The notes beneath the pieces were generated by a model. It saw nothing but the letters and a program-made list of their open reading frames with translations. It did not search any database and was not told the DNA's origin. From the NCBI GenBank assembly GCA_018644725.1, contig JABGPZ010000017.1, positions 1-36,777 on the forward strand: a stretch of 36,777 nucleotides of DNA. Direction: 5' to 3'. This document shows, one piece after another, positions 18,895 through 27,855 of this stretch (its first letter is position 1; each line of letters opens with the position of its first letter). Source of the stretch: Phycisphaerales bacterium. GTDB taxonomy: Bacteria > Planctomycetota > Phycisphaerae > SM23-33. A program made the translations under genes and the position numbers.

Positions 18895-21042
18895 TTAGTA
18901 GTTCCAGACAAAGCTGACCGAGCCGAGGTGCTCGACCATGTCGCTGGCCATTTGGCCCTGATAGCGGAACGCCATCGAGGTGTTGCTGTCGAGGCGCATG
19001 CCGAAGCCCACGCCGTAATAGAACACGTCCGGAGCGGTGGTTTCGACGTCGGCCTTGAATCCGCCGAGCAAGTCCTGGCCTTGCAGTGTGCCCGAAACGC
19101 GCGCGCTTTGGTACAGGTATTCGTGTTGCCAGCCGGCTTCGAGCTGGAGATTCGCGGGCATGCCCAGCAGCTCGCCCTTGTGGCTCAGCCGTGCGCCGAG
19201 GCGCGTGGAGAGAGCGCATTCGCGAACCGCGTCATAGTCGACCGCCGTCAGCAACTGGCCGTCTTCCTTGAAGCTTTCGCGATTGATGAAGCTGTAGGTC
19301 ACGGTCCCCATCGGCGTCAGCGTGGTCCCCGGAGCAAGTGCAATGTCATAGCCAACGGTCATCGCGGCCGTGATGTCCCACATGCTGAAGTCGCCTTCGT
19401 GATCGCCACCCTCACCGAAATCGGTGTAGCGACGATAGTCCGTGGTGTGCAGGCCGAGATTGACGCTTGCGGTCAAGAAGGCCGGGCCATCGCGGAACGA
19501 GGCATAGGGACCGAAGCGGTAGCTGTCCATGTCGCCGTCGCCTTGGCCGTGGCTGAAGTCGATAGTCTTGTGTTCATAGCTGAACGCGAAGCCCAGCAGG
19601 AAGTTGTCGGAGACCTTCATGTCCACGCCGGCGGCAATCCCGTAAGCGCAGAATTCATAGCCCATGCGGCTGTTGGCGTCTTTGTGGTCGTTCATCACGC
19701 CGTACGGCATGGCCCAAATCGTGGCCGTGCCAAGGTTCGCCGGGCGCGTCGAGGGTCGCCGCGTCGTGGGCGCTTTGCGTTCCACGGTGCCTTCGGCAAG
19801 ACGAGTCACTTCGTCGGCGGGAGAGGCAACAGCCATTTCCGCACCAAGGCTCATCGCGATTGCGTCTGCATCGCTGGCGGCCGAGGCGAGCATGTCGCTC
19901 ACACCCATGCCCGGTTCAAAGGCCATCGCGTGGGCATTGTCGCTCAGCACGGCATAGGCGTGGCGTTCGACCTGCTTGGTGAGGCGTTCGTCCCAGACCA
20001 ACGGGAGCCTGGAGTCGACTGCGGAATCTTCAAGGTTAATCAATGTGAGGTCAATCGCGAAGACGTTGTCATCGCTGATCGGACGACCGGTCGCGGCGGC
20101 CACTTCCGAGGCCGTCTCGAGAACTTCTGCCAATTGTTCCTCCGAAATCGCGGGGAGCTTCGAACCGGCGAAGTCAACATCTTCGAAATCTTTGCCGGTG
20201 AAGTCTTGGCCCGTGAGGTCCATGTCGTTAAACGACGCGCCGACGATCGAAAGCGCACCGTCGATAGCACCGGGATCAAGAATCACCTTACGTTCTTGGC
20301 TGGGGTCGGCACCTTCTTCTGCCGTATATGCCGCAGCGAACCATGCGCCGTCGAGATTCGAGCCGGTAAAGCTTTGGCCATCAAGTTTGGACTGGTTGAA
20401 GTTGGTTCCGCGCAAGTCCATCGTCTCGAACGTGCCAGCGGCATAGCCGCCCGTGGAGGTCGACAGGTCGCTACGGGAAATGTCCACCATCTGCAGGTTG
20501 CCGTTGAAGCCGGTGCTTCCATCGGTGTACGATGCGGTTGAGGTCAGCTGCGCGCGGGAGATCCCGCGGCCAGAGACGTTGGTGCTGGGACTTGGGATCG
20601 CAGCAGGCCACACGCCGCCTTGGCTGAGGCCGCGGAAACCCGCGCCAGCAGCCGAGGTGCCAAAATCGCCCGCAATGTCCGCGTTGGTGAAGTCCGTCCC
20701 GGCCGTGATGGCCGCATTGGTCATGAGAGTACCAACAAGGTTTGCGTTGGTAAAATTCACGCCGGACAGGTTGGCATCGTTCAGGTCCGCGCCAGAAAAG
20801 TCCGCACCCGTGAAATCCGAATCGGTAAAGTTCGTATACACGGCCGATGCGCCCGAAAGGTCGCTTCCGCCGGTGAAGTCCGGGTGGCTCGCATAAAGAG
20901 CGCCATGCCCCCAGTAGGAAAAGCCCGTGGGGAGATCATCGCCATCCAGCGTTCCGTCAGGCAAATTCAGCACAGCAGCCTGGGTCGTGACCGCCACAAA
21001 GAGCAGCATTCCCGCCAGTGTCCAATTCTTCATATTCCTCAT
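18895..21042 (-). CDS. Autotransporter-type barrel protein with pentapeptide-repeat passenger
   Basis: The 715-residue protein starts at the ATG with AGGAG 7 nt upstream (21042); a second ATG at 21033 is also possible. A signal peptide (about 1-23, ending TTQAA) is followed by pentapeptide repeats of the A(D/N)LxG type at about 45-125 and 175-290 (DFTGADFSGADLNDANLSG and similar). An alpha-helical Ala-rich linker and a Thr/Pro/Arg stretch (APTTRRPSTRP) come next. The last 270 or so residues alternate polar and aromatic residues as in a 12-strand autotransporter barrel and end in an aromatic residue (SFVWNY). This suggests a type V-like outer-membrane protein displaying a right-handed quadrilateral beta-helix. 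Pentapeptide proteins are mostly cytosolic, so the pairing is unusual. It is monocistronic, with a terminator at 18827-18859. Confidence 0.8.
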   Translation of the reverse strand: MRNMKNWTLAGMLLFVAVTTQAAVLNLPDGTLDGDDLPTGFSYWGHGALYASHPDFTGGSDLSGASAVYTNFTDSDFTGADFSGADLNDANLSGVNFTNANLVGTLMTNAAITAGTDFTNADIAGDFGTSAAGAGFRGLSQGGVWPAAIPSPSTNVSGRGISRAQLTSTASYTDGSTGFNGNLQMVDISRSDLSTSTGGYAAGTFETMDLRGTNFNQSKLDGQSFTGSNLDGAWFAAAYTAEEGADPSQERKVILDPGAIDGALSIVGASFNDMDLTGQDFTGKDFEDVDFAGSKLPAISEEQLAEVLETASEVAAATGRPISDDNVFAIDLTLINLEDSAVDSRLPLVWDERLTKQVERHAYAVLSDNAHAMAFEPGMGVSDMLASAASDADAIAMSLGAEMAVASPADEVTRLAEGTVERKAPTTRRPSTRPANLGTATIWAMPYGVMNDHKDANSRMGYEFCAYGIAAGVDMKVSDNFLLGFAFSYEHKTIDFSHGQGDGDMDSYRFGPYASFRDGPAFLTASVNLGLHTTDYRRYTDFGEGGDHEGDFSMWDITAAMTVGYDIALAPGTTLTPMGTVTYSFINRESFKEDGQLLTAVDYDAVRECALSTRLGARLSHKGELLGMPANLQLEAGWQHEYLYQSARVSGTLQGQDLLGGFKADVETTAPDVFYYGVGFGMRLDSNTSMAFRYQGQMASDMVEHLGSVSFVWNY

Positions 21043-21235
21043 ATCAATCTCCTGAAACGATGGCCCGCATCCAGCGAACCTTTTGTTGTCTAAGCCTCCC
21101 AATGGCTGTAATTGTACAACCACACCACCAGAATCTCTTTACAGAGGCTATGGGGTCCTTCGTAGTATCGACTATTCTTCGCGTCTCGTCCAGCTTTTTT
21201 TGGGCATTTCTCCCATTTTCTCCGAAATTCTTGTC

Positions 21236-24982: not shown

Positions 24983-26215
24983 TTACCGCCTTCTCTTCGA
25001 TTTCTTTTTCTTTTCGTCGGGCGAGCGGATGTGCAGTGCTCGCTTGCGCAGTTCCATTTCCGCAAAGGGGAAGGTGTCTTTCAGCGACTCCCGAAGGCTG
25101 TCGCGATAGAGAAAGGCCTTGGGCGCATACCCCTCGGGGAGGCAATAGACCCAATCCACCGTCAGCCACAGGTGCCTGGAATAAAGCCTCGGCGGAGCAG
25201 TGCCCGACGGCTTTTTGACTTTTTCTTGATCGATCAGAGACTGGATGTACTCTACATAATCCAGAACGACACGGTCACTGCGAGCGACAAACAACGCGTT
25301 CCGGTCTTCGGCCTGCCATGCGGTCCACTGGCCCTTGGGGGTCAGCGCAGCATAGGCCACAGGATAGAATCTTGCACTCGCGACAACTTTGCCTTTGACC
25401 TTTTTTTCGGCCAGAATCGCGAAGTGACTCGCCGGCAACCGCCACCAGGGATCCACCTTGGTCTCGCCAACTTTTTCACCCTTGGGCACCAGTGTATGCG
25501 AGACGTTCATCCGAAGCATATAGCGATTTGTCCACGCGGGGTTCCGATTGTTCGCGACCGCACACAACGCCTGGGGCGCTTCGTCTTTCACCAGTTGATA
25601 CAGCTTGATGCTGTTGGACTCGAAAAGTTTCGACGTGATGGGAACCGCACGCAAAGCCATCCCGGCGGTATTGCGGTTGCACTGTAGTGCCAGCAACGGC
25701 TCGCTGGTGTTCTGCTCGGCAAAGCTGTCGTCGCCGAGGGCAGCACTGGCGGCATTGGCGATCGATAGGACCATGGTATCGCAGCTCATCAACGCCGAGC
25801 TTTGGCGGCGCAAGTCCGGGCCGTAGGGCTGATAACCCAGGGCCTTGGCCCCCATCGGAAGCGTCTGGACCAAAACCGCGAAGACCCCGCCAACGAGCAG
25901 GCCGCAAAAGATGCCCACGATGCCGCCGCCGATTTGATCCGGCCATTTGCCCATGTGGATGTCGTGATGCACCAGCATTTGCAGGCCGAAGCGAAGAATC
26001 GCAAACGTCGCGACAAACAGAACCGTCAGGCTCACAGGAGCGCCATAGGCCGGGAACCCGCCCAAAACGCCCTTGGCGAAATATTGGTACAGGGTCAGTG
26101 CGGTGGCTGTGGCAATCAGACAGCTCAGCAGCGTAACAAGCGCTTGGAAAATCCCGTGACGGCTCTGCAACCAGGCCGCCAGAAGAATCAAGAGAATGAC
26201 AATGGTATCTAGCAT
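24983..26215 (-). CDS. CvpA-family membrane protein with a large C-terminal domain
   Basis: The 410-residue protein has an N-terminal CvpA-like part of four membrane helices (about 1-18, 24-45, 58-80, 95-120). These carry the family pattern of a short amphipathic piece and GGGIVGIFCGLLVGGVF. CvpA proteins are linked to colicin V export and, in later work, to envelope homeostasis. The 280-residue soluble C-terminal region is not recognised. It has several Trp-rich segments (DPWWRLP, RHLWLTVDWVYCLP) and a very basic tail (KKKKSKRRR). The ATG has AAAGGA upstream and lies 11 bp past the gspE-like stop, so the two are one operon. Confidence 0.72.
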   Translation of the reverse strand: MLDTIVILLILLAAWLQSRHGIFQALVTLLSCLIATATALTLYQYFAKGVLGGFPAYGAPVSLTVLFVATFAILRFGLQMLVHHDIHMGKWPDQIGGGIVGIFCGLLVGGVFAVLVQTLPMGAKALGYQPYGPDLRRQSSALMSCDTMVLSIANAASAALGDDSFAEQNTSEPLLALQCNRNTAGMALRAVPITSKLFESNSIKLYQLVKDEAPQALCAVANNRNPAWTNRYMLRMNVSHTLVPKGEKVGETKVDPWWRLPASHFAILAEKKVKGKVVASARFYPVAYAALTPKGQWTAWQAEDRNALFVARSDRVVLDYVEYIQSLIDQEKVKKPSGTAPPRLYSRHLWLTVDWVYCLPEGYAPKAFLYRDSLRESLKDTFPFAEMELRKRALHIRSPDEKKKKSKRRR

Positions 26216-26226
26216 GGCAGGGTCCT

Positions 26227-27855
26227 TTATGACTTCTTGGGTTTGGTCTTCGTGGTGACCCGGATGATCTCTTCAATACTGGTGGCGCCCTTGACGGCCT
26301 TTTGAATCGCGTGGATCTGCATCGACTGATACCCACCCTGGCGGGCGATGGCTTTGAGGTCGCTCAGGCCCTTGCCTGCGAGAACCGCGTTGGCAAAGTC
26401 CGGGGTGTTGGTGAGGACTTCGTACATCCCCGTCCGCCCGAGATACCCCACGTTGCGGCAGATCCCGCAGACGATATCCTTGCCCTCTTTGTCCTTTTCG
26501 CGGACCAACGGCACACGCGTCAGCGAGCGGATCGAGGCAGGCAGGCCCAGTTTTTTCAATAGTCCCGGATCGGGCGCATAGGCGGTTTTGCACTCGGGGC
26601 ACAGCACACGCAGAAGGTTGCCCCCCACCACGCCGCGCAACCGCGAGAGAGCGACCTTGGGGTCACCGACGAGTTTCATCCACAGCCCCACCGCCGCGAA
26701 CACGTCCTTGGCGGGAATCGTGAACACCACGCTGTGGTCTGCGGCATAGTCGCACGCGCGCCGTGCAGCCTTGGCGGACACTTCACAATTGTCAAAGCCC
26801 ACGATGTCCGGATCGCGACGCAGTGCCGAGATCATCATTTCTTCGAGTAGCGCGGGATCTTTGTATTCGTTCTGCGTAATGTTCGGCAGGTCCGCGATGG
26901 TCTGTTTCTCGAAGGTGACAATCTGCTGGAGATAGGCATCGCGCTTGCGGAGGACCGAATAGAACAGGCTCGTGCGGCCCGAGCGTTTGGGTGCCACCAC
27001 CAGGGTCACACCCGGCTGCTGGAACAGATCGCGGATGGCCTCTTTTTGCGGATCGGCCATGCCGATTTCGTCCAGATCGGTCTGCACCATTTCCTGAACA
27101 ACCTGAATGTAGAGGTACGGGCCTTTTTCCGTGCGGCGCGCGCGGACGATCAAGTCGGTCGGCTCGTCGCCTTGGTCAATGCGGACCTGGCCTTTTTGCG
27201 TTGTCTCGAGTTGCGTGGGATTGATGCCCGAAACCGGAATCAGCATCGCGAGGATGTCGTCGAATTCGATGGCACTGAGAGACTCGCCGAGGGTCGGGAC
27301 ACCGTCGATGGTGTACTTGACCGAAACCTGGCTGGCGGCTTTGACGAATTCGACCTCGGCTGCGCGGCGATAAGCGAGATTGAACAGCATCGCCTGCGTG
27401 TGATTGTATCGGCGCACAAGATCGCGGTCGGTGGCCTGTTCATCGCTGATGAGCACGGCCCGCGAATCGCAATCGTAGAGACGAATTTTGGTGTCCACGG
27501 GGATCGGCTTGTGGGTCCAACGGTCTTTGATCGACGCGAACCATTCCTTGGTGAAGATCTGGTAGGACACGTCGACGAGTTTGTTGCGATGCATGGTATA
27601 GGCCGCCATCACCCCAATGATTCCCGCAGCGTACACGCCGATACCAATGCCCAGCCCCGCAAGAATCGTCAGAATCATCCCCAGCGCGCCCGCGCCAAGG
27701 AACAACCCGACATACAGCTTACGGTTGGCCTGAACGGCTACCGCATCCGCGTTCATCCACGGCGCCAAAAAGACCCAAAGTGCAAACATCCCCGCAGCGA
27801 CCACGATGCAGATCGGACTGATCATCATTGAGGAATATAGAGTTTCCGCTAACAT
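26227..27855 (-). CDS. Membrane-anchored GspE/PilB-like ATPase with degenerate Walker motifs
   Basis: The 542-residue protein has three N-terminal membrane helices (about 12-31, 48-67, 70-87), which replace the usual GspE N-terminal domain. Then comes a type II secretion/type IV pilus ATPase core. The Walker A loop reads APKRSGRTS (288-296), with Arg at the place of the invariant Lys. The Walker B region reads RRDPDIVGFDNCE (346-358), without the normal acidic GEIRD. The C-terminal tetracysteine zinc site is intact (C419, C422, C463, C466), and so is GRTGMYEVL. ATP hydrolysis is doubtful; it may be a scaffold or a divergent ATPase. SD AAGGA precedes the ATG. It is the first gene of an operon with the CvpA-family gene. 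No pilin, GspF or secretin gene is nearby. Confidence 0.82.
   Translation of the reverse strand: MLAETLYSSMMISPICIVVAAGMFALWVFLAPWMNADAVAVQANRKLYVGLFLGAGALGMILTILAGLGIGIGVYAAGIIGVMAAYTMHRNKLVDVSYQIFTKEWFASIKDRWTHKPIPVDTKIRLYDCDSRAVLISDEQATDRDLVRRYNHTQAMLFNLAYRRAAEVEFVKAASQVSVKYTIDGVPTLGESLSAIEFDDILAMLIPVSGINPTQLETTQKGQVRIDQGDEPTDLIVRARRTEKGPYLYIQVVQEMVQTDLDEIGMADPQKEAIRDLFQQPGVTLVVAPKRSGRTSLFYSVLRKRDAYLQQIVTFEKQTIADLPNITQNEYKDPALLEEMMISALRRDPDIVGFDNCEVSAKAARRACDYAADHSVVFTIPAKDVFAAVGLWMKLVGDPKVALSRLRGVVGGNLLRVLCPECKTAYAPDPGLLKKLGLPASIRSLTRVPLVREKDKEGKDIVCGICRNVGYLGRTGMYEVLTNTPDFANAVLAGKGLSDLKAIARQGGYQSMQIHAIQKAVKGATSIEEIIRVTTKTKPKKS

Follow-up and report, generated by a model that had tools for sequence, protein, structure and literature searches.

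A membrane-anchored relative of the PilB/GspE ATPases, probably catalytically inactive, conserved beside cvpA and usually pilT in Phycisphaerae

The stretch of DNA analyzed here (the window) comprises 36,777 nucleotides of contig JABGPZ010000017.1 (C45) of a Phycisphaerales bacterium and carries, on its reverse strand, two closely spaced genes, of which the first, referred to as E (26227..27855, − strand), encodes a 542-residue protein. On the basis of the open reading frame, Pfam and AlphaFold2, E is a membrane-anchored PilB/GspE-like putative pseudo-ATPase. Residues 154–532 match T2SSE (PF00437) with 85.9 bits, above the Pfam gathering score of 24.9 bits, which places E in the superfamily, and its scores against the GspE equivalog TIGR02533 (117.9 bits, cut-off 630) and the PilB equivalog TIGR02538 (101.5 bits, cut-off 676) lie below both cut-offs. 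In an AlphaFold2 model with a mean pLDDT of 83, the core superposes on structures of GspE, PilF and PilB with VIA-align Z-scores of about 29–30. The zinc tetracysteine C419/C422/C463/C466 (26458..26601, − strand), in the CxxC...CxxC arrangement of the PilB/GspE extension ATPases, is invariant in all groups aligned. Ahead of the core, three long membrane helices are predicted at residues 14–41, 45–66 and 68–93 (residues 14–93; 27577..27816, − strand); a simple hydropathy scan detects only two of them, and the three-helix tether described in the earlier note stands on the AlphaFold2 prediction. This N-terminal region gave only scattered weak matches and no named family in a Pfam search, and it is diagnostic of the class by the N-terminal-only profile A1.

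The catalytic motifs of E are degenerate. In the Walker A segment (residues 288–296, APKRSGRTS; 26968..26994, − strand), R294 aligns with the Walker A lysine, and the open reading frame, the T2SSE match and the alignment all bear out the earlier description of a GspE-like protein that combines this altered motif with four zinc-site cysteines. All 12 canonical relatives, drawn from other planctomycete lineages, have the lysine, and none of 81 own-clade sequences does; in the own clade, the column is filled mainly by Val (48%), Leu (21%), Ile (9%) or Arg (7%); the arginine of the window is thus a minority state, and R294 did not prove to be a conserved position. The narrower own-family alignment agrees, with 31 of 31 sequences lacking the lysine and having an altered Walker B and His box. 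The earlier note has E lacking the acidic Walker B. This motif is degenerate (residues 346–358, RRDPDIVGFDNCE; 26782..26820, − strand) but not absent, reading DPDIVGFDNCE against the canonical DPDVVMVGEIRD. Throughout the clade, the Walker B Gly-Glu is degenerate, the His box (TGH) is replaced, mostly by Lys or Arg, and the Asp of the Asp box is mostly replaced. Own-clade E consequently shows neither the Walker A GxxxxGK[ST] nor the Walker B with Gly-Glu and the His box TGH of an active PilB/GspE ATPase, whereas the canonical relatives retain GPTGxGK[ST]T, the Asp box, DPDVxxxGEIR, TGHMVFSTVH and similar motifs. An ATPase that still works through a non-canonical basic residue (K290, R291 or R294 in the window) would fit the Lys-to-Arg exchange and the further basic residues of the loop, but is very unlikely given the variability of position 294 and the concurrent decay of Walker B, His box and Asp box. 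A separate Planctomycetaceae GspE-like protein (L166, 5488–7071), missed by the three-helix profile, also has no Walker A lysine (GPRSGLTTS) and is possibly another independent loss.

Other residues of the nucleotide site are retained. G293, E316 of the Asp box, R416 and all four cysteines are found in 100% of both the own clade and the canonical relatives, and T/S295 of the P-loop in 99% of the own clade; since the P-loop glycine and hydroxyl residue and the Asp-box glutamate are kept, E may still bind nucleotide.

The second gene, on the same strand, encodes a 410-residue CvpA-family membrane protein, C (24983..26215, − strand), separated from E by the 11 bp of 26216–26226, as the earlier note had it. 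Its residues 2–124 match Colicin_V (CvpA, PF02674) with 40.9 bits (gathering score 29.3), and the same family is matched by all 21 aligned members; Pfam and the predicted structure delineate a transmembrane domain of four helices (residues 1–124; 25844..26215, − strand). The C-terminal extension (residues 125–410; 24986..25843, − strand) is mostly β in a low-confidence prediction. It has no Pfam match, including none to a protease family, in keeping with its earlier description as an unrecognized domain. Foldseek returned no match at E ≤ 0.001 for this model, in which residues 190–390 are of low confidence; with the same low-confidence model as query, the best VIA Z-score was 4.9, to assorted β-sandwiches, and no convincing sequence relative was found in the PDB. 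A DUF4352-like β-sandwich, suspected by eye, had no supporting Pfam match and was set aside. Related extensions are present in the CvpA proteins of the window's family, and CvpA is about 350–660 residues long in Phycisphaerae compared with mostly about 185–270 in the canonical relatives. Enterobacterial CvpA is a predicted 4–5-helix inner-membrane protein of uncertain function, needed in E. coli for deoxycholate resistance (PMC6705877).

Gene order was surveyed at 88 loci, with denominators counting those with enough sequence. The pairing with cvpA is nearly universal: in 83 of 84 relatives, cvpA is the next gene after E. Directly upstream, 67 of 85 relatives (79%) have a pilT-family gene, preceded in turn by hisF at 22 of 61 loci; hisF, pilT and cvpA are the recurrent neighbors of E, and the usual unit is pilT-E-cvpA, with hisF in front at roughly one testable locus in three. 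The linked PilT proteins appear to be catalytically intact: Walker A is kept in 68 of 69, and the two that were scored against TIGR01420 reach 400 and 405 bits (cut-off 319). The gene preceding one of these two is identified as hisF by its NCBIfam model. Two observations temper what the linkage can say. Because pilT is also linked to catalytically intact E (L089, L093, L095, L096, L100 and L160), it is not specific to the pseudoenzyme state, and because hisF is adjacent as well, some of the shared gene order may reflect common descent and not function.

The genome from which the window comes has hisF and pilT on another contig, C34, with 20 bp between them. This PilT shares 51–57% identity with the six operon PilTs from Phycisphaerae used for comparison, and the PilT encoded in the pilus cluster only 37–42%; the hisF-pilT pair is thus orthologous, and the module is present but split. 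Beside the relocated pilT, near the probable break of the operon, lies a tandem pair of genes (L209, 1416–6495) for proteins of 838 and 790 residues that have a long identical stretch in common in their C-terminal halves. The two-component complex proposed earlier is not supported in that form, the usual unit having three genes. The earlier statement that no pilus or type II secretion gene is near agrees with the neighbors examined on the 36.8-kb contig and with its lack of PilC/GspF, but does not extend to the relatives with pilT next to E. A search of the genome's contigs located four ordinary PilB/GspE ATPases and three two-domain PilC/GspF platform proteins, none of either on C45, and this tally leaves no platform over for E. 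Elsewhere in the window, a 742-residue protein (18895–21123, − strand) combines pentapeptide repeats with an autotransporter β-barrel by Pfam, which seems an uncommon pairing for a planctomycete.

These gene neighborhoods bear on two alternatives in which E acts without PilT. In one, E works with CvpA alone as an envelope unit, a channel or exporter with its scaffold, with no further functional tie to PilT or pili. The E-cvpA linkage is tighter than that of pilT, the window contig has no platform gene and the neighbors examined are not pilus genes, and CvpA of E. coli is itself active in deoxycholate resistance (PMC6705877); what speaks against such a unit, which we consider rather unlikely, is that 79% of loci have an intact PilT-family motor beside E, among them loci from lineages beyond the class in which E is canonical. 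In the other, E would bind ATP, ADP or another nucleotide without hydrolysis and signal through its helices to CvpA, independently of PilT. The retained P-loop and Asp-box residues are compatible with such a switch, as is the lack of an adjacent pilT in the window and 18 of the 85 relatives, and a Walker A mutant of Myxococcus PilB reportedly alters EPS signaling, suggesting that a substrate-free state can signal (PMC11656802). Against it, the Walker A lysine is gone from every own-clade member, mainly in favor of Val or Leu. This lysine is the main phosphate contact, and its loss usually cuts nucleotide affinity strongly. We likewise give the nucleotide switch only a small share of our confidence.

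E is a fixture of the class. An orthologue was found in 35 of 35 own-family genomes, with a match reaching into or covering the N-terminal membrane region, and profile A1 matched 38 of 38 own-order genomes and 272 of 298 class genomes, nearly always once per genome. When 20 apparent absences were searched again with the full profile, 13 gave a match extending into the membrane region, bringing the count to at least 285 of the 298 Phycisphaerae genomes sampled, in essentially single copy. Across the phylum, the narrow profile matched 43 of 294 genomes, several families outside Phycisphaerae among them. Three MAGs labeled Actinomycetes or Candidatus Kuenenia (L148, L155 and L179) also carry the E family; either mislabeling or mixed bins may account for this. 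Five pairs of degenerate E gave dN/dS values of 0.10–0.24, indicating purifying selection on a gene that is conserved rather than decaying; one CvpA pair gave 0.28.

The distribution and selection together decide against the view that E is an ordinary PilB or GspE that has been damaged and is decaying into a pseudogene. In other lineages, there are indeed relatives with the canonical lysine and a linked pilT, the pattern that the earlier note had named as the sign of such damage, and the window copy sits on a long branch. These relatives do not turn E into a damaged PilB, since E lacks the lysine throughout the class and is under purifying selection; near-universal presence, intact frames and invariant cysteines leave decay extremely unlikely, and this explanation is refuted for the family as a whole. 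The sequence evidence that E is a conserved pseudo-ATPase is strong.

In a tree of E relatives, the lysine-bearing sequences form one cluster. With ordinary PilB/GspE as outgroup, this cluster adjoins the outgroup and the degenerate sequences are distal, from which the active state is most likely ancestral; catalytic activity would then, most likely, have been lost from an active, membrane-anchored ancestor. The earlier suggestion of descent from a secretion or pilus ATPase is borne out, as are the motif loss, the tether to the membrane and the near-constant pairing with CvpA, all of which are conserved class-wide. A second degenerate lineage is formed by four sequences (L091, L097, L099 and L163), which may have lost the motifs in the same event as Phycisphaerae or in a separate one. 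One genome has a second, more ordinary PilB/GspE-like copy (L111, 5357–7108) directly before the degenerate E.

We propose, with about even confidence, that CvpA is a membrane partner at which the pseudo-ATPase E anchors PilT or regulates it, a partnership read from gene order. The ancestor would have been a membrane-anchored pilus-extension or secretion ATPase of PilB/GspE type, whose catalytic residues are kept in other planctomycete lineages, and the Phycisphaerae lineage would have lost the Walker A lysine, the Walker B Gly-Glu and the His box. With three helices and a presumed outside N-terminus, the core would face the cytoplasm, probably with no ATP turnover of its own now. On this view, E would be the membrane receptor, or a regulatory subunit, of a ring ATPase that has kept its catalytic residues, with the neighboring PilT as the likeliest candidate. 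It could act on that ring by stacking, hetero-oligomer formation or competition, and would couple the motor to CvpA, whose presumably extracytoplasmic C-terminal domain may sense or contact the envelope. The output might be pilus retraction, surface sensing or some envelope process for which PilT supplies the motor. A role for a dead subunit is plausible because PilT cooperates with a secondary ATPase, PilU, through which inactive PilT Walker mutants still retract (PMC11656802). In a bolder version, which we regard as doubtful, the dead membrane-embedded PilB-type subunit and CvpA would replace the PilC/GspF platform as the dock for PilT, which would drive an envelope process other than pilin polymerization.

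Little seems to have been written so far about inactive members of the PilB/GspE/PilT motor family. A probably inactive motor relative fixed across a whole class, with intact sister lineages, offers a natural before-and-after comparison, and E provides a concrete test of how a ring ATPase may be anchored or regulated without its usual platform. The poorly understood CvpA family gains a repeated partner. Many phylum-restricted planctomycete genes, some of them essential, have no known function (PMC10632474), and planctomycete cell biology acquires here a defined three-gene target.

In the literature searched, we found no description of the pilT-E-cvpA module and no paper joining CvpA, GspE and planctomycetes, and CvpA with PilT returned only unrelated genome papers. 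The secretion-related operon Plim_0401-0410 of P. limnophila was considered as a possible pilT-E-cvpA locus, but the identity could not be shown. Among known systems, PilU is a functional analogy only: it is likewise a secondary ATPase relative working with a primary PilT (PMC11656802), but is PilT-type, whereas E is PilB/GspE-type and membrane-anchored. For C, a parallel in architecture is MarP, in which an extracytoplasmic, trypsin-like protease domain follows a CvpA-like membrane domain. C also has a four-helix CvpA domain with a further region behind it, whose fold is predicted with low confidence and which showed no match to a protease or other Pfam family; the short CvpA of one canonical relative (L095) weakly matches the MarP model (16 bits, cut-off 250). 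With GspE and PilB themselves, E shares ancestry, the zinc tetracysteine site and the same fold over residues 147–535 (Z 29–30 to 4pht, 1p9r and 5tsh), but its N1 domain is replaced by the three membrane helices, and it is without the Walker A lysine, Walker B Gly-Glu and His box. Also close are the canonical planctomycete homologues, exemplified by a Gemmataceae MAG (L160) and by L089, L090, L092–L096, L100 and L159, which have the N-terminal membrane region, cvpA downstream and often pilT upstream in common with E, and differ from it in that their catalytic motifs are all intact and their CvpA partner is mostly short.
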